Below, one piece after another: positions 16,642 through 31,886 of a stretch of 64,000 bases of DNA. Origin of the DNA: Kocuria sp. TGY1127_2 (GTDB lineage Bacteria; Actinomycetota; Actinomycetes; Actinomycetales; Micrococcaceae); the NCBI RefSeq assembly GCF_013394385.1, contig NZ_AP022834.1, positions 434,001 through 498,000 of the forward strand. Reading direction: 5' to 3'. Within the stretch, counting starts at the first letter, position 1. Each line of letters opens with the position of its first letter. Position numbers and translations under genes: made by a program. The notes below the pieces were generated by a model. It was not told the origin of the DNA, did no database searches, and worked only from the letters and a program-made list of their open reading frames with translations.

Positions 16642-16899
16642 CTAACTGGTGAAAGGGGCGGTTGCGTCCGGACCGTTGTCGACCGGCATAATGATCAGTT
16701 CGTTGCACTGGGGCCGGTTGAGACGGGAAAAGCAAAAACCCGGTTCTTCCCGTTCGTCGTCCGAAAGAATGCCATCCCGGTGGTCGACAATCTCACTGAC
16801 CATTTTGATCTCACATGTCCCGCGGCTCCCGCGCTCGTAGGAGATTGGGGTATGAAATCCTGCCGCAAGCGCCAAGGCGTTTCGGGGAGTTGTGCGTGT
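16642..16899 (-). pseudogene. Decayed C-terminus of a VanB-type flavodoxin-like reductase
   Basis: The minus strand still reads as the C-terminal plant-type 2Fe-2S domain of phthalate/vanillate dioxygenase reductases: ALAAGFHTPIS, then GTCEIKMV, VDHRDGILSDDERE, and SRLNRPQC. In the family the first cluster cysteines form C-x4-C-x2-C. Here the pattern is Y-ERGS-R-GT-C, so two of these three ligands are lost. Nothing recognisable of the FMN and NAD domains remains upstream, and there is no good start codon. I read this as the relic of an oxygenase reductase gene next to the catabolic island. Confidence 0.55.
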
Positions 16900-17209
16900 G
16901 GGGCATGGATCGGAGAGAACCCAATATTCCCGGCGTCAGGAGGCGTGCCTCCGCATGGTCCAAGCTGATGAAATCTTGTGGATGCCAGTCGGTTCCGTGA
17001 AAAGCCCGTCACCGCAAGAGTGTCGAGAATTGGCCTCTGTCCGTAATTGAGAACGAGTAGAGCCAGGTGCAGGGCAATGAATACGGCCGCTGGGAGGGGG
17101 ACAGTGTCTGTGTCGCCAGGCTCGCGGGCCTCGGCGCGCCGGGGGCCACAGATCCGGTCGAGGAATGGTCGGACTGCGGTCATTCGACGACTGAGGACCG
17201 GACCGTTCA
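16900..17209. other. Non-coding stretch left of the catabolic island
   Basis: I see no convincing gene, RNA or repeat here. A reading frame on the minus strand over 16695-17210 lacks family features and shares its sequence with the reductase relic in another frame. Confidence 0.5.
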
Positions 17210-17221
17210 TTCATACATGAA
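17210..17221. promoter_or_regulatory. Candidate GntR operator, island left promoter
   Basis: TTCAT-AC-ATGAA is a perfect 5-bp dyad with a 2-bp centre, the form bound by FCD-type GntR regulators. A close copy (TTCAT-GT-ATGCA) lies on the regulator's own start site at 20823-20834. Other dyads here are GTTGT-GT-ACAAC at 17229-17240 and ATTCCCA/TGGGAAT at 17266-17294. Confidence 0.35.
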
Positions 17222-17315
17222 ACCTCATGTTGTGTACAACAAGACATCAACGGTCATGGCTAAAAATTCCCATCACCCCTGAAATAGTGGGAATAAAGCC
17301 GTTCTGCACAAGGTG

Positions 17316-17345
17316 TTGACTCCTATTGGTGACCCCGATTACAGT
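17316..17345 (+). promoter_or_regulatory. Promoter of the flavin reductase operon
   Basis: TTGACT (17316-17321), an 18-base spacer and TACAGT (17340-17345). The ATG at 17353 follows 8 bases after the -10 box, with no Shine-Dalgarno, so the mRNA is probably leaderless. The regulator promoter at 20794 has the same layout. Confidence 0.55.
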
Positions 17346-17352
17346 CTCTACC

Positions 17353-18300
17353 ATGCAACAGGAGATACAAGAAGCAATCTGCAAAGCGTGGGAAGCGGCA
17401 TGGGACCGTGGAGAAGTAGACCGCCTCGATGACATCATGGCGCCCGACTACAGACGCTCCAGCACCTCGAGCGACACATCCATGACAATGGATGGGCTCA
17501 AAGACGAGATCCGTAGCGTACGAGCAGCTTTCCCGGACCTGACCACCACAATCGACGAGTTCATAGCCAATGACTGCAAAGCCGTCATCTTCTGGACATC
17601 AAGGGGCACACATACGGGTGATAGCCTCGACGCCCCCTCCACGAATCTTCCCGTCGTAACGCGAGGATCCAATATTCTCGAAATCGAGAGCGACCTTGTC
17701 ACCCACGAGACCGTGACATGGGACCGCGCAGGGTTGTTGGCTGATACCGGGATCAAGCAACTTTCTGCTGCTCACGAACCGTCCCATTCCGAAATTGTGG
17801 TCGACACCATGGCCGAGGACCCCGACCACGAAGCCGTCAAAGGATTCAACCGGAAATTCATAACGGGCGTGACGGTCGTAACCACCGGCTCCGGGGATAT
17901 GGCGAAAGGCCTTGCCTGCAACGCCTATTGCTCGATTTCGTTCGAGCCCCCGCTGGTTCTCGTATGTGTCCAGAAGACATCTTCGACGCATCCGGACCTG
18001 TTCAAGTCCTCTCATCTCGGCATCAATATCATCGCCAACGATCAGAGCGAAACACTGGCAACGTTTGCGTCAAAAGGCGTCGACAAATTCGCGGGCGTCA
18101 CCTGGCACGAGGGCCCTCATGGTTCGCCACTTATCGACGGTTCATCCGCTGCACTTGAAGCCGAGATCAAAGAGCGCTTCCAGGCCAAGACCCACACGAT
18201 GTTCATCTGCCGCGTGCGACACGCAGAAGTAACTGACTCTGAACCAATGGTTTACAAGGCGGGCCGATTTTACGACGGCGCCGACCTTCATGCCCTTTAA
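17353..18300 (+). CDS. NTF2-like domain fused to a flavin reductase
   Basis: A 315-residue fusion. Residues 1-135 look like a SnoaL/NTF2-type small domain (ICKAWEAAWDRGEVDRLDDIMAPDYRR). Residues 155-315 are a flavin reductase of the RutF/HpaC class: FNRKFITGVTVVTT, then LACNAYCSISFEPPLVLVCV and a late HTMFICRVRHAEV. The reductase should supply reduced FMN to a partner monooxygenase, most likely the luciferase-like enzyme at 25291. The role of the N-terminal domain is unknown; it could bind substrate or act as an isomerase. The gene is first in a unit with the permease and amidase. Confidence 0.8.
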   Translation: MQQEIQEAICKAWEAAWDRGEVDRLDDIMAPDYRRSSTSSDTSMTMDGLKDEIRSVRAAFPDLTTTIDEFIANDCKAVIFWTSRGTHTGDSLDAPSTNLPVVTRGSNILEIESDLVTHETVTWDRAGLLADTGIKQLSAAHEPSHSEIVVDTMAEDPDHEAVKGFNRKFITGVTVVTTGSGDMAKGLACNAYCSISFEPPLVLVCVQKTSSTHPDLFKSSHLGINIIANDQSETLATFASKGVDKFAGVTWHEGPHGSPLIDGSSAALEAEIKERFQAKTHTMFICRVRHAEVTDSEPMVYKAGRFYDGADLHAL

Positions 18301-18344
18301 ACACGACGGCGAGACGTCTCCATAATGACCTGAAAGGATACGCA

Positions 18345-19796
18345 ATGGCGCGCATCGATGAAAACGGCACGGCCCCCGACCAGGGATATCGAGACAGCCT
18401 GACCAAAGTTGAACCGTACGGCATCGAACACATTCCCGAGGCCGAACGGCACGGAAAGCCCAGTTCCCAGTTTTTCATCTGGTTCGCCGCCGGTATGAAC
18501 TTCCCCATCATTGTTCTTGGATTCAGTGCAAGCAGTCTGGGCCTGTCTACGAGCGCCTCAATCACCGCGATCCTCATCGCCGCTTTCGTCGGATCCATGT
18601 TGATGGGAATCCTCTCCAAAATGGGGGTCCGCCTCGGGATACCGCAGCAAATGCAAGCCCGCGGCACGCTCGGTTTCATCGGCAATATGTTCCCGGTCGC
18701 CTACATTAACGTCTTCGCCGGCATAGGCTGGGCCGCCACGACGATCATCCTCGGCGGCAAGGCGATCGCCGAGCTGACCAATGTTCCGTTCTGGGCCTCA
18801 GCGCTCATCCTTGTTGTCCTGCAGCTCGCTGTCGGGTTCGTAGGCTACAACCTCATCCACTATCTTCAGCGCATCCTAGCCATCGTGCTGTTCTTTGCTT
18901 TCCTCGTCATCAGCATCGTCAGCCTGCAACGTGGAGGAACACAACTTCACACGAACCCGGAAGCTCCAGGATTCGCCGGCAGCGGTAGCTGGATCATATT
19001 CTTCGGTTTTTTCCTGTCATTTCTCATCGCCTGGTTCCCTTTCGCTTCGGACTACTCTCGCTATCTGCCAAATACGAAGGAGACGCGCCGCGGTGCAGGT
19101 ATCTTCACCGCGTTGGGCAGTTTCGTGACCATTGCTTGGATGGGCATCCTCGGAGTCATCCTTGCTGGCTCGGCGACATCCGAAGATCCAATCACGGCAC
19201 TGCACTCTCTGATGGGGCCGTGGGCCTTGCCGGGGCTTGGGGCAATTGCGCTCTCCTCGTTCTCGCAGAATTTCCTCAATGTGTACGGCGGCGCAATCTC
19301 GATCCAAACCTTGGGCATTCCCATTAAACGCCAGACCGGTGTTGTACTCATCTGCGTTGCCGCCTACCTTGTCGCGTTATGGGGTCAGACCAGCTTTTAC
19401 GACAGCTTCAAAGTCTTCCTCAACCTGACCGCGTATTTCATCGCGCCTTTCGCCGCGCTCCTGATGTGCGACTTCTACTTCGGCAAACGGGCCAGCAAAC
19501 AGGGTATCGCCGAGCTATTTGATAGGTCCCGCAAATTCGAATGGGGTTTCGTAGCCTGGGCGGTCGGCGTCATAGGATCATCGCCTTTCTGGATATCCTC
19601 CCTTTACACAGGGCCTGTGGCATCGGCATTCCCGCAAATCGGTGACGTGACCTATTACGTCGGAGCCGCGATCGCCATCGTCATTTATTTCCTCACCTAC
19701 CCGTTGCCGCGGCTATCGGGGCGGCGTATCACGCCACGTACCGCCGTCAGGTCAGAGAGAGAACAGCCGGAGACGGAACGAGTAACGACAAACTGA
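18345..19796 (+). CDS. NCS1-family nucleobase/heterocycle permease
   Basis: A 12-helix transporter of 483 residues of the nucleobase-cation-symport-1 family, which imports cytosine, uracil, allantoin, hydantoins or pyridoxine. Family features are the N-terminal KVEPYGIEHIPEAERHGKPSSQFFIWFAAGMN region and the GFVGYNLIHYLQR segment. GAAAGGA lies before the ATG. It sits between the flavin reductase and amidase genes, so its substrate is probably the nitrogen heterocycle that the island degrades. Confidence 0.87.
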   Translation: MARIDENGTAPDQGYRDSLTKVEPYGIEHIPEAERHGKPSSQFFIWFAAGMNFPIIVLGFSASSLGLSTSASITAILIAAFVGSMLMGILSKMGVRLGIPQQMQARGTLGFIGNMFPVAYINVFAGIGWAATTIILGGKAIAELTNVPFWASALILVVLQLAVGFVGYNLIHYLQRILAIVLFFAFLVISIVSLQRGGTQLHTNPEAPGFAGSGSWIIFFGFFLSFLIAWFPFASDYSRYLPNTKETRRGAGIFTALGSFVTIAWMGILGVILAGSATSEDPITALHSLMGPWALPGLGAIALSSFSQNFLNVYGGAISIQTLGIPIKRQTGVVLICVAAYLVALWGQTSFYDSFKVFLNLTAYFIAPFAALLMCDFYFGKRASKQGIAELFDRSRKFEWGFVAWAVGVIGSSPFWISSLYTGPVASAFPQIGDVTYYVGAAIAIVIYFLTYPLPRLSGRRITPRTAVRSEREQPETERVTTN

Positions 19797-19797
19797 C

Positions 19798-20334
19798 ATG
19801 CTCAAATTATCGCCGAGACTTGTCATCATCGACATGCAGCGGGCCTTCCGCGACGAGACCCAGTGGCGCATTCCGCGCTATGACAATATCGTTCCCGTCA
19901 TCAGTGACCTGATCGAGTCCACTTCAACACCACCGATTGCCACTCGATTCATCCGCGATCCAGCCGAACGCGGCACATGGCATAACTACTACGATTACTG
20001 GCACCAGATGAGGCTCGCGCCCGACGATAACCAATGGGAGATCACCCTCAGCCTGCCGGACAATGCCTCTGTCATTGACAAACCCACCTTTGGAAAATGG
20101 GGGCCTGAACTGGCTCGGCTCATTCCAGAAGGCCACGAAATGCTGCTCACCGGAGTCGCGACCGATTGTTGCGTGCTGGCAACGGCCATCGCAGCGGTCG
20201 ACGCCGGTCGTTCCGTCACGGTGGTCTCCGATGCGTGCGCAGCAGTCAGCGACGAGGTTCAAGACCAGACGCTAGCGATCCTCGGTCTACTGTCACCGAT
20301 GTGCCGCATCGTCAAAGCCTCAGAGTTGGGATAA
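19798..20334 (+). CDS. Isochorismatase-fold cysteine hydrolase (amidase)
   Basis: A cysteine hydrolase of 178 residues. The triad is visible: D12 in IIDMQRAF, K95 in SVIDKPTF, and C125 in LTGVATDCCVLAT. Relatives hydrolyse amides, ureido acids (RutB), nicotinamide or N-carbamoyl compounds. It begins one base after the permease stop, so the two are probably co-translated. In the island it is the best candidate for cutting an amide after ring opening. Confidence 0.85.
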   Translation: MLKLSPRLVIIDMQRAFRDETQWRIPRYDNIVPVISDLIESTSTPPIATRFIRDPAERGTWHNYYDYWHQMRLAPDDNQWEITLSLPDNASVIDKPTFGKWGPELARLIPEGHEMLLTGVATDCCVLATAIAAVDAGRSVTVVSDACAAVSDEVQDQTLAILGLLSPMCRIVKASELG

Positions 20335-20793
20335 GGAGCCAAAATCGCGGCCAGCTGTGCAGGTCCCGACAAGGGGACAGAAGATCATTCCCACGCTCTG
20401 CGCGGGGACCACCCGTGAAGGGCAAATACTTGCCCAGGGCGGGCAAGAGATTCCATGTGCAGGGTGAATCCGTACGTCACTTGCCGAAGTGCAGGAAGAG
20501 CCGACTGAATCCTTTCGCGGAAACATGTCCGGCCCGCTGACGAGACAAGCATTAATGCCGAGTCAGCTCGTCGGCGACTGGGTGTTCGACCAGAGAAGGG
20601 TAATCTCGCGTCGCTATGGGTGCCTCCGTCTGCGGGTGAACCTGATGACGCCACGATGAGCTACCTTGCCGAGGCTGATAAACCCTAAAGCTAGAGGATT
20701 ATCACCTGTTGCATGCCAGTAGCCCAGAGAATAAAAACTCGGATGGGTTAACCAAGGGTAAAAAGGCGGAATATCACGGTACATTGCTTCCCC
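20335..20793. other. Intergenic region between the two island operons
   Basis: About 460 bases without a convincing gene. A small hairpin, CTTGCCC (20429-20435) with GGGCAAG (20441-20447), may end the upstream transcript. GGTTAACC near 20744 is a perfect palindrome in front of the regulator promoter. Short open frames here show no family features. Confidence 0.5.
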
Positions 20794-20823
20794 TTGACAG
20801 CAACGTAACGCAAGTCATAGATT
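20794..20823 (+). promoter_or_regulatory. Promoter of the GntR-led operon
   Basis: A consensus TTGACA (20794-20799), an 18-base spacer and TAGATT (20818-20823). The regulator's ATG at 20830 is 7 bases after the -10 box, which again suggests a leaderless transcript. Confidence 0.6.
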
Positions 20824-20834
20824 TCATGTATGCA
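20823..20834. promoter_or_regulatory. Candidate GntR operator over its own start site
   Basis: TTCAT-GT-ATGCA matches the dyad at 17210-17221 (nine of ten arm positions). It covers the end of the -10 box, the predicted +1 and the start codon, a position suited to autorepression. Confidence 0.35.
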
Positions 20835-21579
20835 AGAAGCCATGGAAAACCCAACGCAAAGCACAGGTGTTGAGGTCCCTCTGCTGGAGAAGGTACGTCG
20901 TCAAGTTATCAACGGACGTTATGGGCCTGGAGACCTCATCCCCGAAATCGTGCTGGCGGAAGAATTTGGGGTCAGTCGCACCCCCATCCGCGAAGTCCTC
21001 AAGCAGTTGCAGAACGAAGGGCTGGTGGAGATTCGGCCCCGCGTAGGGACGTTCGTGCGAGAACCGACGCGTCGGGAGATCGTTGAACTATTCGAACTCA
21101 AGGAGTCCCTGGAAGGGTTAGCTGCCAGTCTCATGGCTCGACGCGGCCGGGTCCCTGAGCTCGAGACACTTGAACGCAACCTAGAGGCCTCAGACGTGGC
21201 CGCGTCTGAAGGAAACAGCCAATCGTATGCAGAGCTAGTCCACGAATTCCATTGGACTCTGGTACGTGGTGCCGATAACCGGAAGTTGTACGAGACCTAC
21301 GAGCGACTGATGAACCAGTTGGCATACCACCGCATTGTTGTTGACACGGTGACTCGGCCCGGTCGGCTCAAAGCTTCCGATAATGAGCACCATGCCGTGG
21401 TCGAGGCCATCAACCGCAAAGACGCTTTGGACGCAGAGTTCACCATGCGCAATCACGTTCGTGCTTCGAGCCAAGCAGCGTTGGCTCCGACGGACTACCC
21501 GCGTCTCACCGAAGCTGGTGCCTTGGACAACACGGAAGAACACTCGCCTACCGTCAGGAGTAGCCGCCATGGCTGTTAA
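20830..21579 (+). CDS. GntR-family regulator with FCD ligand domain
   Basis: A DNA-binding regulator of 249 residues. The winged helix is residues 15-80 (LAEEFGVSRTPIREVLKQLQNEGLV, then RPRVGTFV). The FCD domain follows, with histidines suited to metal or acid binding in VHEFHW, NEHHAVVEAI and MRNHVRAS. It is first in the longer operon and probably controls both island units through the paired TTCATnnATGAA-like dyads. Its 3' end overlaps the next gene by 11 bases. Confidence 0.88.
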   Translation: MQEAMENPTQSTGVEVPLLEKVRRQVINGRYGPGDLIPEIVLAEEFGVSRTPIREVLKQLQNEGLVEIRPRVGTFVREPTRREIVELFELKESLEGLAASLMARRGRVPELETLERNLEASDVAASEGNSQSYAELVHEFHWTLVRGADNRKLYETYERLMNQLAYHRIVVDTVTRPGRLKASDNEHHAVVEAINRKDALDAEFTMRNHVRASSQAALAPTDYPRLTEAGALDNTEEHSPTVRSSRHGC

Positions 21580-22213
21580 CACGGCACCGACAGCTATTGG
21601 TGGGGAGGTAGCGACTCGGATCGGTCTCCGCTCGCTCACGACCGTTTGCGATGAATTGCGTCTCGAAGCCGGAAGTCCCCTTCAACGCCCCTTGAGTCAG
21701 GCCGCGGCGATCGCGGTCGTGAAAAACCCGTGGCTCGAACAAGGGACCCAAAACGATCTCGGAGCAGCGTCGGAGTTCATCGCGCCTGTCTTGGGCAAGA
21801 TACTCACGGACCAGCTCATCTCATCGTTGGGCGACGTCGAAACCATTGAAGCCTTCGGTAAAGCCGCTCTGGTGGGAATCGATGGCGAGCTCGAGCATGC
21901 AGGAGCGCTGATTCATACTCCGTACTTCGGCAACATTGTCCGCGAATTGTTACAGGGTACCTCGGTACTTTGTTTCACCGACGGACGTTCTGCCCCAGGT
22001 TCTGATCTGCGGGTTCCCTTGTGGCACAAGACTCGGGCGACGTCCAGGAACCACTATCAGACGATGGAAATCCACCTGCCTGACGCTCCTCGGGCAGATG
22101 AAATTTGCGTCATTGCTGCAGCGGCCAATGGCCCGCGCCCGTTCCCGCGCCTGGGCGACCGGCAAACTGATCGTCCGATTACCGCCGAAATTCTGAAAGG
22201 AATCCTGCCATGA
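21569..22213 (+). CDS. AA_synth-family (DUF1185) protein, first paralogue
   Basis: A 214-residue member of the family named Amino acid synthesis (DUF1185), whose biochemical role is not established. The shared core is AVVKNPWLEQG near residue 48, then GKAALVGIDGELEHAGALIHTPYFGN, with a late HYQTMEIHLPDAPRADEI stretch. CAGGAG precedes the ATG at 21569, inside the end of the regulator gene. The neighbouring gene is a shorter paralogue, so the pair may act as a hetero-oligomer. Its N-terminus is about 30 residues longer than that of the second copy. Confidence 0.75.
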   Translation: MAVNTAPTAIGGEVATRIGLRSLTTVCDELRLEAGSPLQRPLSQAAAIAVVKNPWLEQGTQNDLGAASEFIAPVLGKILTDQLISSLGDVETIEAFGKAALVGIDGELEHAGALIHTPYFGNIVRELLQGTSVLCFTDGRSAPGSDLRVPLWHKTRATSRNHYQTMEIHLPDAPRADEICVIAAAANGPRPFPRLGDRQTDRPITAEILKGILP

Positions 22214-22761
22214 ACATTCGAAAAATCACTACTATCACCGAAGAGATCACCAGTGAGGGAGGACGAACTGTCGATCCTCCGGCTCGTCTGGCCGTGGTCG
22301 CTGCAGTTATCGAAAACCCATGGAAAGGTCAGGGATTCGTCGAAGACCTTACCGACGGGATCGAAGCTGTCGCTTCCGATCTCGGAGCGGAATTGGCACC
22401 GCGAGTGATGAAGGCACTCGGTGCAGATCTGGAGGCTTATGGCAAAGCTGCCATCGTGGGGCTCAACGGCGAGATCGAACACGGGTCGGCCCTGATCCAT
22501 ACTTTGCAGTTCGGCAATCATTTTCGCGATGCTGCTCAAGCGAGCACCTTGCTGCCCGCAGTCGAAAAACGAGCCCCTTCCGGGGCCGTCTTCGATATCC
22601 CCCTGAAGCACTTCACTGACGCCAGCATTCGGTCGCATCACCAGACGACCGAGGTACGCATCGCGGATGCTCCGCACCCGGATGAAATCTTGATCGCGTT
22701 GGCCGGTGCTGCCCAAGGACGCCCGCAGCAACGACTGGCGCCACTGAAATCCGAGCAGTGA
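22210..22761 (+). CDS. AA_synth-family (DUF1185) protein, second paralogue
   Basis: A 183-residue paralogue of the preceding protein. It keeps the same landmarks: AAVIENPWKGQG, GKAAIVGLNGEIEHGSALIHTLQFGNHFR and SHHQTTEVRIADAPHPDEI. The start overlaps the previous stop by four bases (ATGA), a sign of translational coupling. The EHGSALIHT and SHHQT motifs are the most conserved blocks between the copies and are likely active-site positions. The reaction is unknown; operon context ties it to the heterocycle catabolic enzymes. Confidence 0.75.
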   Translation: MNIRKITTITEEITSEGGRTVDPPARLAVVAAVIENPWKGQGFVEDLTDGIEAVASDLGAELAPRVMKALGADLEAYGKAAIVGLNGEIEHGSALIHTLQFGNHFRDAAQASTLLPAVEKRAPSGAVFDIPLKHFTDASIRSHHQTTEVRIADAPHPDEILIALAGAAQGRPQQRLAPLKSEQ

Positions 22762-23522
22762 TCCGGATGGCTGAGCCCGCTAACGGCACCTCGGTGGTTC
22801 TCCTGCACGGAGTGGGCCTTGACCGGACAGTCTGGTCCGCCGTTGAAGAACAGATGGGTAGACGCCCGACTTTGGCGCTTGACCTTCCAGGTCACGGGGC
22901 TCAGCCACCGTTGAGGTCATCAATGACGTTGGCAGAGCTGGCCGATGACGTTCTTGAACGTATGCCCGACGAGCCGGTCCACCTCGTCGGTTTTTCCTTG
23001 GGGGCGCTGATCGCCCAGTTGATCGCAGCACGAGACCCTGAACGCCTGGTGACACTGACCTGCGTGAGTGCGGTTTGTTCCAGGACCCAGGGGGAGGCGG
23101 CTGCAGTCCAGAACAGACTCACTACAGCTCGGAACGACTTCCGGGCCAGCATGGAACAAGCGGTCCAACGTTGGTTTCCGGGCAATACCGAGATCAGCTC
23201 TCTGCGCCGGGACAGGACCTTCAAAGTGCTGATGGCAAATGACGTCGAGTCCTATCTTCATGCATACGCCGTTTTTGCCGGTGGGGACCGAAGCGTCGCA
23301 CCAGAACTGCCCAAAATTACCGTGCCCACTCTGGCTATCACCGGGGAGCTAGACACCGGTTCCACCCCGGAAATGACCACCCGGTTGGCAGAAGTCGTAC
23401 CCGATGCCCGGCGTCGCATCGTTGCCGGAGTCCGACACATGCTTCCCGCGGAGGCCCCTGAAGAACTTGTCGCGGAATTAAACGATTTCATCAACGAAGC
23501 GGAAGGAGCTCATCATGGCTGA
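22758..23522 (+). CDS. Alpha/beta hydrolase (RutD/enol-lactonase-like)
   Basis: A 254-residue alpha/beta hydrolase. The oxyanion region is LLHGVGLDRTVW, the nucleophile elbow GFSLG near residue 77, the acid TGELD, and the histidine in VRHMLPAEAPE. Relatives include PcaD-type enol-lactonases and RutD-type aminoacrylate hydrolases. It starts with GTG in a GTGA overlap with the AA_synth stop; an ATG nine bases later is an alternative. In the island it could hydrolyse an enamine, lactone or amide product of ring cleavage. Confidence 0.82.
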   Translation: MIRMAEPANGTSVVLLHGVGLDRTVWSAVEEQMGRRPTLALDLPGHGAQPPLRSSMTLAELADDVLERMPDEPVHLVGFSLGALIAQLIAARDPERLVTLTCVSAVCSRTQGEAAAVQNRLTTARNDFRASMEQAVQRWFPGNTEISSLRRDRTFKVLMANDVESYLHAYAVFAGGDRSVAPELPKITVPTLAITGELDTGSTPEMTTRLAEVVPDARRRIVAGVRHMLPAEAPEELVAELNDFINEAEGAHHG

Positions 23523-24996
23523 GCGTCTCGATCACTTTATCGGGGGAGAACACCACTCTCCATCCAGCGGGACATGGTTTCCCAGTACCAACCCCGCAAC
23601 CCTGGAAACACTCTACGAGGCAGCACGCGGCGACGAGGCCGATGTCCGAGCCGCTGTAGAGGCAGCCCACAAAACGTTTAACTCCCCTGAATGGACTCGG
23701 AAAACCCCCACTCAGCGGGGGCACCTCTTGCGACGATTGGGCGATGTGATCGGCGAACACGCTGATGAGCTGGCCCGGTTGGAGAGCGTAGATAACGGCA
23801 AGCTGTACCGCGAGATGCGTGGCCAGCTCAGAAGCTTACCGGAGTACCTGTACTACTACGGCGGCCTGGCCGATAAGGTTCAGGGTTCTCAGATCCCGAC
23901 CAATTCTCCTGAAGTATTGAACTTCACACAGCGGGAGCCGCTGGGGGTCGTGGGAGCAATCACGCCCTGGAACTCGCCGCTGACTCTTACGGTCTCCAAG
24001 TTGGCTCCGGCGCTGGCCGCTGGAAACACGCTGGTGATCAAGCCCAGCGAGCACACGTCTAGAACCATCCTGCGACTAGGTGAACTGGCCGACGAAGCGG
24101 GTTTCCCCGCCGGGGCCGTCAACGTCGTAACAGGTTTCGGCGCGGAAGCCGGAGCCGCACTGGTGAATGATCCAAGGCTGGCCAAAATCTCTTTTACGGG
24201 CTCCACCCGGACTGGCTCTGCGATCGCTTCGTCGGCTGCAGCTCGATTTATCGGCTGCACACTGGAGCTGGGCGGGAAGAGTCCCAATATTGTCTTTGAG
24301 GACGCCGATGTTTCTAATGCTGCCATGGGTGTGATCGCCGGGATATTTGCCGCCGGGGGCCAGACCTGTATCGCTGGTAGCCGGGTTCTTGCGCACAGAA
24401 GCATCTACGACGAGTTGGTCGAACGCGTCACCGAACGGGCATCAACAATCAAAATCGGTGATCCTTTAGAAGATGAAACCGAATTGGGGCCGTTGGCCTT
24501 TGAGGATCAGCTCAAGAAGGTGCGTTCATATATCGATATCGGGTCGGATGAAGGGGCCACAGTTCATTACGGTGGCCAAGACCCCGAGGTGGACCTGCCC
24601 GGTTACTTCATTACTCCGACGGTTCTCACCGGTGCAACAAACGACATGCGGATCTGCCGTGAGGAAATCTTTGGCCCAGTCGCGGCGATCATGCCTTTTG
24701 AGACCGAGGAAGAGGCCCTGCGTCTTGCTAATGACACCGACTACGGGCTGGCCGCAGGGGTGTGGACCTCGAACCTGCAACGAGCAATGCGGATGTCGCA
24801 AAGACTCGATGCCGGAACAGTTTGGCTGAACACCTACAGGGCCATGTCACCGATGTCTCCCCGAGAAGGATTCAAACAATCTGGCGTCGGAGTCGAGCAC
24901 GGTCTCGAATCGATGAATGAATACACCCGGCTGAAGAGTATCTGGATCAACACCGATGAGGGCCCTGTCGCGGACCCGTTCGTGATGAGGGGGTAA
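23515..24996 (+). CDS. NAD(P)-dependent aldehyde dehydrogenase
   Basis: A 493-residue aldehyde dehydrogenase. The general-base glutamate is E251 in LELGGKSPN and the catalytic cysteine C285 in GGQTCIAGS; the cofactor-binding ITPWNSP motif lies near 149-155. It resembles the semialdehyde dehydrogenases of aromatic catabolism (HpaE type). It overlaps the hydrolase gene by 8 bases and has GGAGC just before the ATG. It should oxidise the semialdehyde formed after ring opening to an acid. Confidence 0.88.
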   Translation: MAERLDHFIGGEHHSPSSGTWFPSTNPATLETLYEAARGDEADVRAAVEAAHKTFNSPEWTRKTPTQRGHLLRRLGDVIGEHADELARLESVDNGKLYREMRGQLRSLPEYLYYYGGLADKVQGSQIPTNSPEVLNFTQREPLGVVGAITPWNSPLTLTVSKLAPALAAGNTLVIKPSEHTSRTILRLGELADEAGFPAGAVNVVTGFGAEAGAALVNDPRLAKISFTGSTRTGSAIASSAAARFIGCTLELGGKSPNIVFEDADVSNAAMGVIAGIFAAGGQTCIAGSRVLAHRSIYDELVERVTERASTIKIGDPLEDETELGPLAFEDQLKKVRSYIDIGSDEGATVHYGGQDPEVDLPGYFITPTVLTGATNDMRICREEIFGPVAAIMPFETEEEALRLANDTDYGLAAGVWTSNLQRAMRMSQRLDAGTVWLNTYRAMSPMSPREGFKQSGVGVEHGLESMNEYTRLKSIWINTDEGPVADPFVMRG

Positions 24997-25000
24997 AGGA

Positions 25001-25240
25001 ATGCCGCTGATCGATATTTCCATCGCCGAAGGGCGCAGTCGGAAACAACTGCGGGAACTGATGGAAGGTGTGCACCGCGTTGCTGAGTCAACAGTCGGCG
25101 CCGCGCCGGAAAACATCACCGTCATTGTTCGCGAGGTGTCCCACGAGCTCTGGTCTCGCAACAACCAAACTATCGCGGAACGGACGGCAAGCACCGACCT
25201 GACGGTATCGCCTGCCGAAGTCGAGACCAAGAATCGCTGA
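25001..25240 (+). CDS. 4-oxalocrotonate tautomerase-family protein
   Basis: A 79-residue tautomerase-superfamily protein. The catalytic proline follows the initiator methionine (MPLIDISIAEGRS), as the family requires, and IVREVSHELW supplies the usual basic loop. It should isomerise enol and keto forms of an unsaturated acid in the pathway. It lies four bases after the dehydrogenase stop. The Arg/Lys-rich C-terminal tail is slightly longer than in classical 62-residue 4-OT. Confidence 0.82.
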   Translation: MPLIDISIAEGRSRKQLRELMEGVHRVAESTVGAAPENITVIVREVSHELWSRNNQTIAERTASTDLTVSPAEVETKNR

Positions 25241-25290
25241 TGTCCAGGAACAGTGACGTTCCTGGAACCGAGAAGAAGAGGAGGAGAAAG

Positions 25291-26337
25291 ATGCGTTTTT
25301 CGCTGTTCATCCATATGGAGCGGTGGGACGAATCGCTGAGCCACGAAGAACACTGGAAGAACTTGGTGGAACTGGTGCGAATCGCCGAGGAGGGAGGATT
25401 CGAAACTGTATGGATCGGAGAACACCATTCCACGGAATACACCATCTCACCCAGCCCGATGCCCCAACTGGCATACCTGGCCGCAAAGACTTCGAAAATT
25501 CGACTTGGAGCTGGGACCATCGTTGCTCCCTTCTGGAATCCCATTCGGGCTGCTGGGGAAACCGCTCTGCTTGATGTCATCAGCGGCGGGCGAGCTGAGA
25601 TCGGGATCGCCCGTGGGGCCTACCAGTTCGAGTTCAACCGTTTAGCTGGCGGTATGGCCGGGGCAGAAGGGGGTAAATATCTTCGTGAGCTTGTTCCGGC
25701 GGTGCGTAAACTCTGGGAGGGCGACTATGTCCATGACGGCGAACTATGGCAGTTCCCAGTCTCGACCAGCGTTCCGAAACCTGTTCAGAAGCCCACTCCT
25801 CCGATCTGGGTCGCTGCGCGCAGCCCTGAGACACACGACTTCGCTGTGGCCAACGGCTGCAATATCCAAGTCACCCCCTTGATGAAGGGGGATGAAGAAG
25901 TCAAAGACCTCAAGGACAAGTTCGACGCTGCAGTAGCCAATCACCCCGAGGTGGAGAAGAAGCCGGAAATCATGGTGCTCAAGCACACCTACGTCCACCC
26001 CTCCGAGGAACCCGATGGATGGCGGCCGGCCGCGGAAGCGGTCAACCGGTTTTACCGGACATTTTCCGCCTGGTCTTTCGGGAAAAAGGATCCGGTGAAC
26101 GGATTCCTGGAACCAATGCCAGAGGAAGATTTCGCCGAGCGTCCTGAGTTCGACCCAGAGGCCCTTCATCATACTGCGATGATTGGTACGCCTGATGAGA
26201 TCACAGGACGGATTCGTTCCTATGAAGATATGGGCTACGACGAATACAGCTTCTGGACGGATAACTCAATGCCCCATGAGGACAAGAAGCGTTCTCTGCA
26301 ACTGTTTATAGACGAAGTGATGCCGAACTTCCATTAG
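25291..26337 (+). CDS. Luciferase-like flavin-dependent monooxygenase
   Basis: A 348-residue FMN-dependent oxidoreductase of the bacterial luciferase class, with an (alpha/beta)8 barrel. Typical blocks are GGFETVWIGEHHSTEY near residue 35, IRLGAGTIVAPFWNPIR, and ISGGRAEIGIARG. The ATG at 25291 has a strong AGGAGGAG site and is preferred over the ATG at 25240 that overlaps the tautomerase stop. It needs reduced flavin from a separate reductase, probably the fusion at 17353. It is the likely ring-oxygenating enzyme, as RutA is for uracil. Confidence 0.85.
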   Translation: MRFSLFIHMERWDESLSHEEHWKNLVELVRIAEEGGFETVWIGEHHSTEYTISPSPMPQLAYLAAKTSKIRLGAGTIVAPFWNPIRAAGETALLDVISGGRAEIGIARGAYQFEFNRLAGGMAGAEGGKYLRELVPAVRKLWEGDYVHDGELWQFPVSTSVPKPVQKPTPPIWVAARSPETHDFAVANGCNIQVTPLMKGDEEVKDLKDKFDAAVANHPEVEKKPEIMVLKHTYVHPSEEPDGWRPAAEAVNRFYRTFSAWSFGKKDPVNGFLEPMPEEDFAERPEFDPEALHHTAMIGTPDEITGRIRSYEDMGYDEYSFWTDNSMPHEDKKRSLQLFIDEVMPNFH

Positions 26338-26360
26338 TCAATAAATCGCGTGATGTTTTT

Positions 26361-26398
26361 ATAGGGCCTCTCGAGCGATTGCGCTCGAGGGGCCCTAT
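26361..26398 (+). terminator. Hairpin ending the island operon
   Basis: Arms 26361-26377 and 26382-26398 pair over 17 positions (one G-U) around an ATTG loop, 23 bases after the monooxygenase stop and before the convergent GH15 gene. No T-run follows the stem. Confidence 0.65.
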
Positions 26399-26534
26399 GG
26401 TGGCGAGATGTGTCCCGGCTTGCGGGGCACTGACTCAACAGGTTCACTCCGGTCGGGTGGGACCCCGCACAGTCGGTTTTCATCTTGATGATCTGTGGAG
26501 CCACGTCCTGGGCTTTCTCAAGGCACCATGGTCG

Positions 26535-28361
26535 TTAACGGGATGCCTCTCGAGTAATGAGAGGATCGCTCTGGCCGCTTAGAGTCTGGGCGCTGTTGAT
26601 CAGCCCGACAAGACTAAACGCTTGCGGGGTATTTCCCATGTGCCGATGTGCTTGGGTGTCGTATTCTTCCGATAACAGTCCCAGGTCGTTGCGCAATGCC
26701 AGAAGACGTTCGAACAGATGCTCGGCTCGCTGGTGCTCACCGATCCCGTGCCAAGCATCTACCAGCCAGAAGCTACAGACCAGGAACGCATTTTCTCTGC
26801 CGGATAATCCATCGGCGTTCCCATCCGCGGTGTTGTCATAACGAAGCAAAAACCCATCGCTGTCGAGTTCTTGGGCCACGGCTTCAACCGTTCCGATAAT
26901 ACGAGGGTCATCCCAGGGCAAGAACCCAACTCGTGGCAGAAGCAACAAGGAAGCATCGAGCCCGTGGGAACCGTAGAACTGGGTGAAAGTATTGCGTTTC
27001 GGGTCGAAGCCATGCGCGCAAATATCGGCATGAATGGCTTGCGCCAACTGTTTCCAGGTGGCAACGTCTCCGGGCAGTCCTTGCTGTTCGACGGCCCGAA
27101 TGGCACGGTCGACTCCGACCCAAGCCATAACTTTGGAATGAACGAAATGTTGCTTGGGCCCCCGCATCTCCCAGAGCCCATTGTCGGGTTCTTGCCAGTG
27201 CTGTTGAATCCAGTCGACGAGCGAACGTTGTAGATCCCAGGCGGAATCGTTGGCCTGAAGCCCCGCTTCGCGGGCGAGATGTAGACCATCGAGGGTCTCT
27301 CCCCACACATCGAGCTGATGCTGTCCCGCAGCTGCGTTGCCGACTCGTACCGGTCGTGAACCCTGGTACCCGTTGAGCCAGTCCAATGTCATTTCCGGTA
27401 TGCGTTGGGTTCCGTCCAACCCGTACATAATCTGCAGTTTTGACGGGTCACCGGCTACTGCTCGAACCAACCATGCCCGCCAGGCCAGCGCCTCGTCGGT
27501 GTAGCCCGTGTTGATCAAAGCCTCGAGGGTAAATGTCGCATCACGGAGCCAGCCGTACCGGTAGTCCCAATTCCGACTACCTCCCAGCTGTTCAGGTAGC
27601 GAGGTGGTCACCGCCGCAACAATTCCGCCGGTGGGTGCGTAGGTCAGAGCCTTGAGCAGCATCAGCGAACGATGTACCTCCCGGCTCCAGGGGCCGTTGT
27701 ATGTGCACTGATCAATCCACCGAGACCAGAAACGAGTGGTCTCCTTCAGCGCGTGGCGGGCGTTGATGGCAGCAGGTGGAGGCAAATAGGAGGGCTTATG
27801 AGTGAGAACGAAGGCTATCTGCTTACCTGATGAGACATCGAAGGTTGCATTCAGGGTCCCGGCCTCGTGGCGCAACGGCACATCCGTGCGAACCCAGACT
27901 GCGTCTGGCCCGGCAACCGCCGCGAATTCTTCTGAGCACGGGGTTCCGGGTGCGTCGTTGCCCGCGTGTATCCACGGGGTGATGCGGCCGTAGTCAAACC
28001 GCAAACACAGCGAGGTACTCATCTGAACGCGTCCTTCGACACCTTCGACAATACGAACTACATTGGCGGCCTCGTCTCGCGGTGGCATGAAGTCGATGAC
28101 ATCTACGATCCCATCTGTAGATTCCCAGCGTGTGCGCAGCACAAGACTGTGAGCATCGTAATCACGTCTGCTCAGGCGCGCGTGCCCGGTCGGGGCAAGA
28201 CTCCAATACCCTGCCGATTCGTCGTCTAAGAGTGCGGCCAAGCAGGCCCGATCATCGAAATGAGGCAGGCACAACCAGTCTATGGAACCATCAAGTCCTA
28301 CCAGGGCGGCGGTGTGCAGGTCACCGATCAGTCCATAGTCCTCGATACGTTTATCGCTCAC
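26535..28361 (-). CDS. Glycoside hydrolase family 15 (glucoamylase/trehalase-like)
   Basis: A 608-residue cytoplasmic enzyme with no signal peptide. The start MSDKRIEDYGLIGDLHTAAL and the DGSIDWLCLPHFD segment are typical of the actinobacterial GH15 group, which includes the mycobacterial trehalases. GWLRDATFTLEALINTGY holds the region of a catalytic glutamate in the (alpha/alpha)6 barrel. It should release glucose from trehalose or short alpha-glucans. Its ATG overlaps the stop of the glucose dehydrogenase gene by four bases, so glucose release and oxidation are probably coupled. Confidence 0.87.
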   Translation of the reverse strand: MSDKRIEDYGLIGDLHTAALVGLDGSIDWLCLPHFDDRACLAALLDDESAGYWSLAPTGHARLSRRDYDAHSLVLRTRWESTDGIVDVIDFMPPRDEAANVVRIVEGVEGRVQMSTSLCLRFDYGRITPWIHAGNDAPGTPCSEEFAAVAGPDAVWVRTDVPLRHEAGTLNATFDVSSGKQIAFVLTHKPSYLPPPAAINARHALKETTRFWSRWIDQCTYNGPWSREVHRSLMLLKALTYAPTGGIVAAVTTSLPEQLGGSRNWDYRYGWLRDATFTLEALINTGYTDEALAWRAWLVRAVAGDPSKLQIMYGLDGTQRIPEMTLDWLNGYQGSRPVRVGNAAAGQHQLDVWGETLDGLHLAREAGLQANDSAWDLQRSLVDWIQQHWQEPDNGLWEMRGPKQHFVHSKVMAWVGVDRAIRAVEQQGLPGDVATWKQLAQAIHADICAHGFDPKRNTFTQFYGSHGLDASLLLLPRVGFLPWDDPRIIGTVEAVAQELDSDGFLLRYDNTADGNADGLSGRENAFLVCSFWLVDAWHGIGEHQRAEHLFERLLALRNDLGLLSEEYDTQAHRHMGNTPQAFSLVGLINSAQTLSGQSDPLITREASR

Positions 28362-29419
28362 AACCCCTCCTCATCGAGCAAAACCACGGTCTTGACCTCG
28401 TGATCGCCAGAGGTAAAGGCCTCGGGAGCCTTCTTGAGCGGAATTCTTCTGGTGATAAGACGCTCCAGCCAACCTAAGTCTGCCTTGGCGAGGATCTGGG
28501 CAGCCTGCTTGTAGTGACCAAGGTTGGCGTTGACAGACCCGACAATCGCATCGTTGTCCAACACGATCTCACGGTTGATGCGGCCAGCATCAATTTTCAA
28601 TGGAGTGCCCGTTCCAGAAACTCCTGTCAGGCAGACGATGCCGTACGGGCCGGTTTCTGCGATGGCATCGAAAATGACTTGCCCGGCTCCGGTCGCTTCA
28701 ATCACCACATCGGGTTTATGGTGTTTGCCGACCTCCGTGACACTACCGGTGTGGTAAGTCGCACCAAGGGCCTGAACGAGATCCGGTTTCGGTCCTTCCG
28801 TGAGTTGATCCAAAACATGGACATCCAAGCCTTGCTGAACGCCGATCATCGCCGCCAACAATCCCACTGGACCAGCCCCGGTCACCAACACCGTCTGCGG
28901 GGCAAACCAGCTGCGCTGGCCAATGCGCTCAACTTGTTCCCAGGCCTTGGCAACAATTGTTGTTGGTTCCAGCAGAACCCCAGCTAGCCCCAGCCGCGGA
29001 TCTAGACGGACCGCGAACTCGGGTTCTACAGTCCACTGTTGGCTTCCGTACCCATTGAGTTGCTTAATCCCTCGCTCGGTGTACCGTCCGTTGCGGCACA
29101 TATCCCATTGCCCGCGTGCACAAGCTCCACAAGGTACCGGATCCGGGCGGCGTACGACTCCGGCTACAAGGTCTCCCACCGAAAACCCGCTTCCGGTGGG
29201 TGCTTGTTCTACCCGTCCCAGTGACTCGTGACCCAAAACAAGATGTTGCTCCCCATCAGGAGCCCAGCCATATTTCCCGTCCGCGATCTCTTTGTCAGTC
29301 CCGCAGATACCGATCGCGAGACCACGGACCAATAACTCGTTATCAGCAGGACGTGGCTCGGGTATTTCCTCGACACTGGTTGAATCTGATTCACCGGGCT
29401 TGACGGTTAGGGCGTACAT
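28358..29419 (-). CDS. Zinc-dependent glucose 1-dehydrogenase
   Basis: A medium-chain dehydrogenase of 353 residues that should oxidise glucose to gluconolactone with NAD(P). The zinc-binding region is ICGTDKEIADGKYGWAP with GHESLGRVE; structural cysteines lie in VPCGACARGQWDMC. The Rossmann motif is VTGAGPVGLLAAMIG. The pattern matches the glucose dehydrogenase branch rather than alcohol dehydrogenase. It comes first in a two-gene operon with GH15. Confidence 0.85.
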   Translation of the reverse strand: MYALTVKPGESDSTSVEEIPEPRPADNELLVRGLAIGICGTDKEIADGKYGWAPDGEQHLVLGHESLGRVEQAPTGSGFSVGDLVAGVVRRPDPVPCGACARGQWDMCRNGRYTERGIKQLNGYGSQQWTVEPEFAVRLDPRLGLAGVLLEPTTIVAKAWEQVERIGQRSWFAPQTVLVTGAGPVGLLAAMIGVQQGLDVHVLDQLTEGPKPDLVQALGATYHTGSVTEVGKHHKPDVVIEATGAGQVIFDAIAETGPYGIVCLTGVSGTGTPLKIDAGRINREIVLDNDAIVGSVNANLGHYKQAAQILAKADLGWLERLITRRIPLKKAPEAFTSGDHEVKTVVLLDEEGL

Positions 29420-29715
29420 AGTTCAGTGGTACCCGACTCTGTCCATTCCGTCCAGCAGGTGGAGAACTTATCAGATCATCGGTAATCCGTCCGTGGCGGG
29501 CTGGTTTGCATGTGCGTCAGAAGCAGACGGGGCCATACGTCCCCTCTGACCTGAACGAGTCACGTCGTCGGAACACTCGGGATATACCAGGTGTAGCGTC
29601 GCGAAATCGGTGCCACCTAACCAGTCAGGTCACATCATGGTCCCGGCTGGAGGGAAGCGGGGTGCCCCGGTCAGGGGCCTCGACCGGTACGGACTATCCG
29701 GTGTATACGTGGGAT

Positions 29716-30066
29716 ATGAACATTGTCGTCAAACGCATCTATGACCGATCTGGCCACAATGATGGGACGCGGGTGCTCGTCGACAGAGTCTGGCCGCGCG
29801 GTATTCGCAAGGAGGACGCCGAACTCGATGACTGGAATAAGGATGTGGCCCCCTCCACGGAACTGCGCAAATGGTACGGGCACGATCCGGACAAGTTTGA
29901 CGAATTCTCCCGTCGCTACCGCGATGAGCTGGCCACCGAGATCGGCCAGCAGGCTCTCAAGAACCTACGCGAGAGTGTCAAAGGAAAACGCCTGACGCTA
30001 CTGACTGCCACCAAGGACATCGAGTACAGCCAGGCGACGGTGCTGGCGCGGATTCTCTCCGACTGA
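29716..30066 (+). CDS. DUF488-family protein
   Basis: A small conserved protein of 116 residues of the DUF488 family, whose function is not established. Landmarks are DGTRVLVDRVWPRGIRKEDA near the N-terminus and LTLLTATKDIEYSQA near the end. The ATG at 29716 is the conserved start. TATACG ends 7 bases before it and no Shine-Dalgarno is seen, so the mRNA may be leaderless. Confidence 0.82.
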   Translation: MNIVVKRIYDRSGHNDGTRVLVDRVWPRGIRKEDAELDDWNKDVAPSTELRKWYGHDPDKFDEFSRRYRDELATEIGQQALKNLRESVKGKRLTLLTATKDIEYSQATVLARILSD

Positions 30067-30186
30067 CCAGTCAGCCGCCAAGCTCGGACACGGCGGCAGT
30101 CTCACCCCTCCTGCCGGGACGGGAACCATCCGGGCCGCAGCCACACAGTGATAGCAGATTCGATGAGAACGACGGAAGATGAGCTC

Positions 30187-30477
30187 ATGTCAGTTGAGGA
30201 GATCTGGATAGAGCCTCGAGGAGACGGCGCTTACCAGGCCACCATGCAATCGTTCGACGGCGAGGCCTCATGCACGCTCAACATTGGCGCCGCGCCCCGT
30301 CTGACCAACGGCATGCTGCCCGATGACGACGTCACGGCACGAGCCGTACTGCAGTTCCTGATGACCCACCAGGACCCATCGCAACTTCCTGCCGATGTGG
30401 AGCTTGAAGACGTTCTGGCCGCTTACGATGATGCCGAACAACAGATCGACTCATATGCCCAAAACCTGCGCTCCTAG
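30187..30477 (+). CDS. Small acidic conserved hypothetical protein
   Basis: A soluble acidic protein of about 96 residues that I do not recognise. It opens with MSVEEIWIEPRGDGAYQATM and ends with an Asp/Glu-rich helix (ELEDVLAAYDDAEQQIDSYA). GGAAGA lies about 10 bases before the ATG at 30187; ATG 30163 or GTG 30148 are possible earlier starts. Codon usage is typical of real genes here. It follows the DUF488 gene on the same strand by about 120 bases, and no function can be inferred. Confidence 0.6.
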   Translation: MSVEEIWIEPRGDGAYQATMQSFDGEASCTLNIGAAPRLTNGMLPDDDVTARAVLQFLMTHQDPSQLPADVELEDVLAAYDDAEQQIDSYAQNLRS

Positions 30478-30713
30478 ACCCCGCTGATCCCAGAAAGCCA
30501 CCATCGGCGTGATCCCGATACCGGCGGAGATCAAATACAGTGGCGGATCCTCATCCGTTCGACCGCATCTAGAGCAGAATGTCCTTCTGTTTCAGAGCTT
30601 TCGAGCGGATTCTTGCCTGTGCCTCTGACGGTATTCTCAATGTGTCCCGCTGGCGCGCATTCCCTAGATCCGCCCAAGACAAGTGGCAGCAGTCTCTTGG
30701 TCGGCTGCCCAGG

Positions 30714-31886
30714 TCAGCTGGAGGCTCCGGAGATTGATTTCGGGCGTGCGGGGTCGATGACGGAATTCGGGTCGAAGAACTCGCGCAACGTATCGGATGT
30801 TCCCTTGATCGCGTGCTTGAGCGAAATCCCATCCACATTGATCCGGGCTTCGCGAAGATAATTCGGTCCGGCCTGCCCCCATGCCGGGGTGGAGGCATCG
30901 ACATTGAAGTAAGAATTGAATCCTTGGCCCTTGAGGTATTGGAACTTGTCGTTACCGTATTCCTCAATGCCGCAAATATCCGCCCCGAAGGGGTAGATGA
31001 GCATATCGGTATTGCCCACGATCGGTGCGACCTCGGCTTGCCACTTCTCGTTGTCCTCCTGGATGTGCGATAGAGGAGATTTGGTGAAGTTGATGTGCCC
31101 CCACGAGTGGCTTGCGAATTCCCAGCCGTTTTTCTTGATGGCATCCGCGACCGATTTTGCGGTCTTCTTGTCCTTTTCGATGTTCTTGTTCTCGTCCTTG
31201 TAGGAGATATCGGAGGTCCGATACCCGAGTACACCGTTGTATCCGGTGATTGCGATGACGCCTTTGGCCCCGTCGTGGGAGAAGTCGGGGTGTTCTTCGA
31301 TGAATTCCTCGACGATCGGCAGGTGATCGTAAGCGCCGATTTTTTTGTTCCCGTCAGCATCACGGTATTCGTTGAGGACTTTCCCGTCCTGGACGATCAG
31401 TCGATCACTGAATCCGTCGCCGTCCATGTATTCGTAGTAGGACAAGTCGTCGAAGGACAGGACCAGGGGTTTCTTGCCTTCCGGAAGGTCCAAGGGTTTG
31501 AGTTCGACGCTGCCGCCGGGGCGGGTTGTGTAGAGCTGGTGGGGGCTGACCAGGACGTAATTGCGGTCGTAGACCTGTTGGATGATCTTCCTGAATTCGT
31601 TGATCGTGACCATGTAATCCAGGTAGCCGTTTGCCTCATCGTCGCCGTCGAATGCTCGGTTCGGATCCACGACCAGCGAGTGGAAGAACAAGTGTGAAAC
31701 CTCGGTGTTGTCTTTCCACGTGATGTTGTGCTGGGTCGGTGTGACCGAGGGGGAATTCGATGTGGGGGCCGATGTGGTGGAGGAGTCGGTCGCGGGTTCG
31801 GTGTCCTGGGAGCTGCAGGCGCTAAGCAAGGCAGCCCCTACCAGCGCCGATGAAGAGATGACTGCGGTCCGGCGGGTGATCTTCAC
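30714..31886 (-). CDS. Polysaccharide deacetylase-like lipoprotein
   Basis: A secreted, lipid-anchored protein of 390 residues. The signal peptide ends in the lipobox LLSAC near residue 24, followed by a Ser/Thr-rich linker to about 52. The NodB-type domain shows the metal aspartates in LVLSFDDLSYYEY and the histidine pair in SHSWGHIN. LIYPFGADICG corresponds to the later substrate loop. It probably removes acetyl groups from a cell-wall or surface polysaccharide. It stands alone. Confidence 0.82.
   Translation of the reverse strand: MKITRRTAVISSSALVGAALLSACSSQDTEPATDSSTTSAPTSNSPSVTPTQHNITWKDNTEVSHLFFHSLVVDPNRAFDGDDEANGYLDYMVTINEFRKIIQQVYDRNYVLVSPHQLYTTRPGGSVELKPLDLPEGKKPLVLSFDDLSYYEYMDGDGFSDRLIVQDGKVLNEYRDADGNKKIGAYDHLPIVEEFIEEHPDFSHDGAKGVIAITGYNGVLGYRTSDISYKDENKNIEKDKKTAKSVADAIKKNGWEFASHSWGHINFTKSPLSHIQEDNEKWQAEVAPIVGNTDMLIYPFGADICGIEEYGNDKFQYLKGQGFNSYFNVDASTPAWGQAGPNYLREARINVDGISLKHAIKGTSDTLREFFDPNSVIDPARPKSISGASS

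Follow-up and report, generated by a model that had tools for sequence, protein, structure and literature searches.

What compound is degraded by a catabolic locus of Kocuria sp. TGY1127_2, whose genome comprises 3.0 Mb in two contigs? The locus lies in a 64,000-nucleotide stretch of this genome, referred to here as the window, to which all plain coordinates refer. An earlier note on this DNA had described ten genes in two adjacent units as an island for an N-heterocycle, with uptake, ring opening by a flavin monooxygenase, amide hydrolysis, and semialdehyde oxidation, and had assigned the set to no known pathway. Our analysis indicates that the cluster is probably an actinobacterial form of the pathway that degrades trigonelline (N-methylnicotinate), carried on a chromosomal insertion. 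Trigonelline is a betaine related to vitamin B3. The trigonelline pathway employs chemistry of the class proposed earlier; the substrate itself is our inference from homology.

All ten genes are present on the plus strand between 17,353 and 26,337, as judged from sequence reading and Pfam matches. Nine of the ten proteins gave Pfam matches, both AA_synth proteins to PF06684, and the tautomerase was matched separately to PF01361 (E 4.5e-12). Unit 1 encodes, in this order, a SnoaL-flavin reductase fusion, an NCS1 permease, and an isochorismatase-fold protein. In unit 2, closely spaced or overlapping genes encode a GntR/FCD regulator, two AA_synth (DUF1185) proteins, an alpha/beta hydrolase, an aldehyde dehydrogenase, a 4-OT-family tautomerase, and a luciferase-like monooxygenase. 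On reading the sequence, the start of the fusion was corrected to the ATG at 17,353 and the coordinates of the tautomerase to 25,001-25,240. The most likely starts of the first AA_synth protein and the monooxygenase are 21,569, within the 3' end of the GntR gene, and 25,291, respectively.

The stepwise chemistry of the TgnABCDEF trigonelline pathway of Acinetobacter baylyi ADP1 was reportedly described by Perchat in 2018. Sequence identities were taken against Sinorhizobium meliloti pSymA and Acinetobacter venetianus as proxies for A. baylyi TgnA-F. The monooxygenase is 51% and 46% identical over its full length to the S. meliloti and A. venetianus proteins, respectively. The corresponding values are 46% and 44% for the aldehyde dehydrogenase, a member of a general family, 31% and 36% for the reductase domain, and 33% and 30% for the hydrolase, and the AA_synth proteins are 42-46% identical to their homologues in the two organisms. 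In A. venetianus, the genes for AA_synth, hydrolase, flavin reductase, monooxygenase, aldehyde dehydrogenase, and an NCS1-type permease stand in a row. The pSymA locus, located between noeA/noeB and nifB/nifA in the nod-nif region, contains genes for GntR, AA_synth, hydrolase, reductase, monooxygenase, aldehyde dehydrogenase, NIPSNAP, an ABC transporter, and succinate semialdehyde dehydrogenase, and is the sole match in the pSymA record at E 1e-40. Since five of the protein types thus sit together in both organisms, at 30-51% identity, the earlier claim of no known match is not supported. The correspondence is partial, as the NCS1 permease is just 26% identical to that of A. venetianus and neither the isochorismatase-fold protein nor the tautomerase is represented in these clusters.

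In the literature, S. meliloti without pSymA fails to grow on trigonelline (PMC4207669), and TgnA and TgnB open the trigonelline ring (PMC8269262). AA_synth, named earlier among the items that set the mix apart from Rut and pyridine breakdown, is DUF1185, the family of TgnF; a third paper calls the DUF1185-type protein HcdD homologous to TgnF (PMC7913881). The same paper reports that TgnF stimulates the TgnE-dependent oxidation of succinate semialdehyde, and that its authors could not show such stimulation for HcdD (PMC7913881). Among the papers listed in our literature search, which did not extend to the 2018 report of Perchat, none dealt with an actinobacterial trigonelline cluster, and we do not claim that none has been published.

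Judging from these comparisons, the ten genes encode a variant trigonelline pathway, presumably acting on trigonelline, with a different uptake pump and extra enzymes. The two-component flavin monooxygenase, the aldehyde dehydrogenase, the alpha/beta hydrolase, and DUF1185 occur together as in the A. baylyi ADP1 cluster, compared here through A. venetianus. The locus differs from that cluster in the fusion of SnoaL to the reductase, the two DUF1185 genes, the tautomerase, and the isochorismatase-fold amidase, all of which we take to be extras relative to the tgn pathway. It differs further in the distant NCS1 permease, the gene order, and the placement of the semialdehyde dehydrogenase outside the cluster. 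The pSymA locus is distinguished by its ABC transporter, NIPSNAP, internal semialdehyde dehydrogenase, and single AA_synth gene, and tautomerase, NCS1, and amidase are not annotated there. Another similar system is the cluster on Arthrobacter dokdonellae pDCT5, which shares the aldehyde dehydrogenase (73%), monooxygenase (70%), NCS1 permease (64%), fused reductase (58%), GntR, two AA_synth proteins, hydrolase, and tautomerase. There, the genes for reductase and NCS1 diverge from the others, and no amidase is annotated in that cluster. Alongside it lie genes for a semialdehyde dehydrogenase, a riboflavin kinase, and a NUDIX protein; the latter two (L092, 4342-6830) may supply flavin for the monooxygenase, and a riboflavin kinase match is also found in L020 and L068.

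In the working that we propose, the substrate would be taken up by NCS1, and the SnoaL-reductase fusion (TgnA) would supply reduced flavin to the luciferase-like monooxygenase (TgnB), which would cleave the pyridinium ring at the C5-C6 bond. The TgnC-like aldehyde dehydrogenase would convert the ring-opened lactol to a diacid, from which the TgnD-like hydrolase would form succinate semialdehyde, formate, methylamine, and CO2. A TgnE-like dehydrogenase encoded elsewhere, aided by AA_synth (TgnF), would deliver succinate to the tricarboxylic acid cycle, and the GntR/FCD protein would control both units through one operator. A candidate for TgnE (G000:C1:2757820-2759160) is 70% identical to the succinate semialdehyde dehydrogenase of A. 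dokdonellae, where such a gene adjoins the cluster, and 47% to that of S. meliloti.

The conservation of the gene set was examined in loci found through the second AA_synth protein (the best 80 of 92 relatives). The actinobacterial set consists of 69 loci (L011-L079, with the distant L076, L077, and L079 included) and excludes the 11 loci of mixed phyla (L080-L090). The monooxygenase was counted as present above 55% identity and GntR without an identity floor. SnoaL, reductase, GntR, both AA_synth proteins, hydrolase, aldehyde dehydrogenase, and monooxygenase occur all together in 58 of the 69 loci, which argues against a chance grouping, and a tautomerase match is found in 54. In 40 of the 62 loci compared, SnoaL and the reductase share a single open frame (in the other 22 they do not), tying the SnoaL protein to the reductase. 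One excluded locus, that of Shinella yambaruensis (L081, 3482-19098), carries the combination of monooxygenase, aldehyde dehydrogenase, reductase, and hydrolase twice within 20 kb, and its two monooxygenases fall in different clades.

The transporters of these loci should be noted. Of the 58 loci having reductase and monooxygenase, 45 contain a transporter of BCCT, the betaine-carrier family (Pfam assignment from one representative), 12 contain an NCS1 permease more than 50% identical to that of the window, and one contains both. The frequency of BCCT speaks for trigonelline, itself a betaine. The BCCT proteins of L020, L027, L049, L050, and L068 are just 34-37% identical and mostly do not adjoin the reductase. 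After the window and A. dokdonellae were added to the 58 loci by hand, the 60 rows comprised one with both transporters, 13 with NCS1 (>50%) only, 44 with BCCT only, and two with neither (Fisher p 3e-10, kinship ignored). The kinship-aware comparison on starred branches gave four independent pairs, of which 3.7 on average pointed the same way and almost none the opposite way, with no difference in the remainder (median p 0.125).

Both units appear to share a regulatory site. The dyad TTGCATGCAA occurs exactly in 24 of 123 promoter regions, a set that includes the two of the window, whereas in 20 shuffles the best dyad occurred each time in 2-3. With at most one mismatch, the window has TTGCATGCAA, and so do 55 of the 68 other loci; 100 single-letter shuffles gave 0.6 loci on average and never more than 3. 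A 26-base matrix was built from exact TTGCATGCAA sites, none of them from the window, and scanned over the 64 kb. Four of its five best sites belong to the two promoters of the cluster (Table 1), and rank 4, at 45,978, is outside them. The operator-like site common to both promoters is in line with co-regulation of the units. The sites at 17,341 and 20,818 overlap a start codon a few bases after a sigma-70-like promoter, and this layout fits a repressor. The right half of the site covers the start and second codons (ATGCAA), so that protein conservation may contribute to the signal, and the number of sigma-70-like sites (5 found, 3.2 expected) is at the chance level. No exact TTGCATGCAA that would point to a wider regulon was found anywhere in the whole genome, window included. 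Two other candidates were discarded. A first guess at the operator, TTCATNNATGAA, occurs five times in the window (1.08 expected) but only 42 times in 1.31 Mb of relatives, with 17 of these near scored starts, and was replaced by TTGCATGCAA. An inverted pair (17,206-17,225 and 20,819-20,838) was dropped as additional motif support, its left arm scoring -2.5 on the matrix.

Table 1. Features of the locus in window coordinates, with the evidence for each
Feature	Coordinates	Strand	Evidence
Stretch absent from the site in relatives, ~14 kb	16671..30723		Comparison with five genus genomes
Weaker operator-like site upstream of reductase, rank 5	17222..17247		Matrix
Operator-like site over reductase start codon, rank 3	17341..17366		Matrix; sigma-70-like promoter 17,316-17,345 just before
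SnoaL-flavin reductase fusion, TgnA-like reductase	17353..18300	+	Pfam SnoaL and Flavin_Reduct; homology
NCS1 permease (Transp_cyt_pur), presumed importer	18345..19796	+	Pfam
Isochorismatase-fold cysteine hydrolase, presumed amidase	19798..20334	+	Pfam Isochorismatase; conserved residues; structure model
Operator-like site upstream of regulator, rank 1 in 64 kb	20701..20726		Matrix
Operator-like site over regulator start codon, rank 2	20818..20843		Matrix; sigma-70-like promoter 20,794-20,823 just before
GntR/FCD regulator, presumed repressor	20830..21579	+	Pfam GntR and FCD
AA_synth (DUF1185) protein 1, TgnF-like	21569..22213	+	Pfam; homology; family link to TgnF
AA_synth (DUF1185) protein 2, TgnF-like	22210..22761	+	Pfam; homology
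Alpha/beta hydrolase, TgnD-like	22758..23522	+	Pfam Abhydrolase; 30-33% to proteobacterial homologues
Aldehyde dehydrogenase, TgnC-like	23515..24996	+	Pfam Aldedh; homology
4-OT-family tautomerase, accessory	25001..25240	+	PF01361
Luciferase-like monooxygenase, TgnB-like	25291..26337	+	Pfam Bac_luciferase; homology; tree

Several points weigh against the assignment to trigonelline. The transporter is NCS1 and not BCCT, and the amidase is not needed by the core. The similarity of the hydrolase is weak, and BioH, an esterase, and an enol-lactonase rank ahead among solved structures. With 592 of 646 bits, the TgnE candidate misses the TIGR01780 cut-off, as does its A. dokdonellae counterpart (545). 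Among the 120 monooxygenase homologues listed, of 1100, eight bear the JGI name of an SsuD-like alkanesulfonate monooxygenase; two, in favor of the assignment, bear that of trigonelline monooxygenase. Most others have general names or none, and A. baylyi TgnB is not named among them. Furthermore, the same core is paired with a different monooxygenase in other genomes, and thus the core by itself does not fix the substrate.

The isochorismatase-fold protein raises the alternative that a tgn-like pathway serves a related substrate, 1-methylnicotinamide or another pyridine amide: NCS1 would import the amide, the amidase would make the acid, and the core would do the rest. The fold (structure model with a predicted local distance difference test score of 94) and the nearest structures, at 16-23% identity, are those of amidases, with nicotinamidase first and biuret hydrolase, maleamate amidase, N-carbamoylsarcosine amidase, and others following. 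Among 26 relatives, the residues Asp12, Lys100, and Cys125 do not vary, nor do Trp61, Tyr64, Tyr65, Trp68, and Trp80. Identity as a nicotinamidase was rejected in spite of this Asp-Lys-Cys triad, because the metal-binding histidines are missing (the histidine stretch of 1ilw has no counterpart) and the score on PRK11609 is low (30.9 of 174 bits). At a presence cut-off of 35% identity, by which one 27% match was dropped, the amidase occurs in 12 of the 19 rows with any NCS1 but in none of the 41 without (Fisher p 4e-8, kinship ignored); the seven NCS1 rows without it, and A. venetianus, with an NCS1-type permease and no amidase nearby, speak against this alternative. The kinship-aware comparison is not significant, with seven independent pairs, on average 4.4 the same way, almost none opposite, and the rest showing no difference (median p 0.125). 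At these p values, the link of NCS1 to the amidase, like that between NCS1 and BCCT, is only suggestive.

Two samples of 295 family genomes, one for the monooxygenase and one for the isochorismatase, were taken to be the same. The monooxygenase is found in 40 genomes and the isochorismatase in 29; 13 have both, 12 of these within 10 kb, and the remaining 27 of the 40 show that the core can do without the amidase. Ten of the 16 genomes with isochorismatase but without this monooxygenase were read (stretches of 17.5-20 kb). Five have the same cluster with another luciferase-like monooxygenase (~28% identical), two have NCS1 and isochorismatase without the core (L206 and L208), one has NCS1, isochorismatase, and tautomerase, and two have isochorismatase without NCS1. 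This spread suggests that the amidase is dispensable for the core and tends to accompany NCS1; its neighbors outside the core in the genomes read were too varied to yield a function. In L200, L201, L202, L204, and L209, a core of the AA_synth pair, hydrolase, aldehyde dehydrogenase, tautomerase, GntR, and reductase stands with NCS1, isochorismatase, and a luciferase-like monooxygenase ~28% identical to that of the window and 25% to that of Rhodococcus aetherivorans pN1. On balance, we consider a dedicated pyridine-amide pathway unlikely. It is conceivable, though doubtful, that NCS1 and the isochorismatase form a plug-in through which the ring-opening pathway also, or instead, accepts a pyridine compound other than trigonelline, for example 1-methylnicotinamide. 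On that reading, the tgn core, around which relatives switch importers (BCCT or NCS1) and in some genomes even the monooxygenase, would act as a general back end for rings of the pyridine type.

Uracil breakdown by Rut and pyridine breakdown by pyr use the same classes of enzyme, and the comparison of the gene set supports the earlier view that it matches neither. The matches to RutF (72 bits, cut-off 255) and RutD (30, cut-off 239) are far under the curated cut-offs, the amidase has four matches, none of them to RutB, and RutA is not among the 25 shown of 29 monooxygenase matches. The pyr pathway of actinobacteria shares the two-component monooxygenase and the aldehyde dehydrogenase, and the R. 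aetherivorans pN1 locus, which we take to be pyr-like, also has a tautomerase. However, the hydrolytic step of pyr uses an amidohydrolase, for which there is no Pfam match among the ten proteins, and the pN1 monooxygenase is only 28.5% identical to that of the window. A pathway of either type is therefore extremely improbable here. The pN1 locus (L095, 6487-21852) contains monooxygenase, flavin reductase, aldehyde dehydrogenase, amidohydrolase, tautomerase, succinate semialdehyde dehydrogenase, and formate dehydrogenase genes, together with genes for a nicotinate phosphoribosyltransferase, a ribose-phosphate pyrophosphokinase, and a PfkB kinase; genes of phosphoribosyl metabolism look out of place in a ring-cleavage locus.

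It is also very improbable that the two units are unrelated neighbors, with the left one (reductase, NCS1, and amidase) serving another purpose. Their histories do differ. The nearest named sequences come from Kocuria sp. 36, Rothia koreensis, R. halotolerans, and R. santali, and the monooxygenase is closest to other Rothia in a tree rebuilt without outgroups, the first having had very long outgroup branches. In a quick tree of the reductase domain, grouping of the five Rothia/Kocuria rows, picked after the identities had been seen, was rejected (approximately unbiased test, p-AU 0.0045), and beyond Kocuria sp. 36 the nearest rows are Arthrobacter. Since the reductase domain departs from other Rothia and the monooxygenase does not, the left unit has a separate history and was apparently swapped as a cassette. 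BCCT is carried by R. santali and R. halotolerans, whereas the contig of R. koreensis breaks off before this can be judged. Against unrelated units, 58 of the 60 loci with the monooxygenase also include a related reductase, the other two (L014 and L048) being cut off there, and the operator-like site stands in both promoters.

The trigonelline-type cluster lies on an insertion, as the word island in the earlier note had implied. The window from 16.67 to 30.72 kb is missing at the site in four of the five genus genomes examined (G005, G012, G031, and G018), where the matches to 16.63-16.67 kb and to 30.72 kb onward are only 34-122 bp apart. As both edges nearly adjoin there, ~14 kb was either gained in the source genome or lost in relatives. 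The fifth genome, G006, shows greater divergence, with different DNA at the site. In the comparison, purQ was used as the anchor instead of the GH15 gene, which is present in only 2 of 35 genus genomes. AA_synth was found in 5 of the 35, source genome included. G005 and G018 carry the cluster and purQ on separate contigs with the purQ site empty, so the cluster has more than one location in the genus. No direct repeat of at least 18 bases that would suggest site-specific integration is present at both insertion ends, and an Rfam search of 16-31 kb gave no match. The same insertion holds, at 26535-30066, a GH15/trehalase-like, a glucose-dehydrogenase-like, and a DUF488 gene. The purQ match of a related genome (G016:C3:258333-259067) has one in-frame TAG, reflecting a pseudogene or an assembly error.

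If the assignment to trigonelline is correct, this common plant compound would feed actinobacteria of many genera, including Rothia, Arthrobacter, Brevibacterium, Streptomyces, and Nocardia, and the DUF1185/AA_synth family would gain a role in the ring-cleavage pathways of their genomes. The swapping of importers, amidase, and even monooxygenase around a fixed core would then become directly testable.

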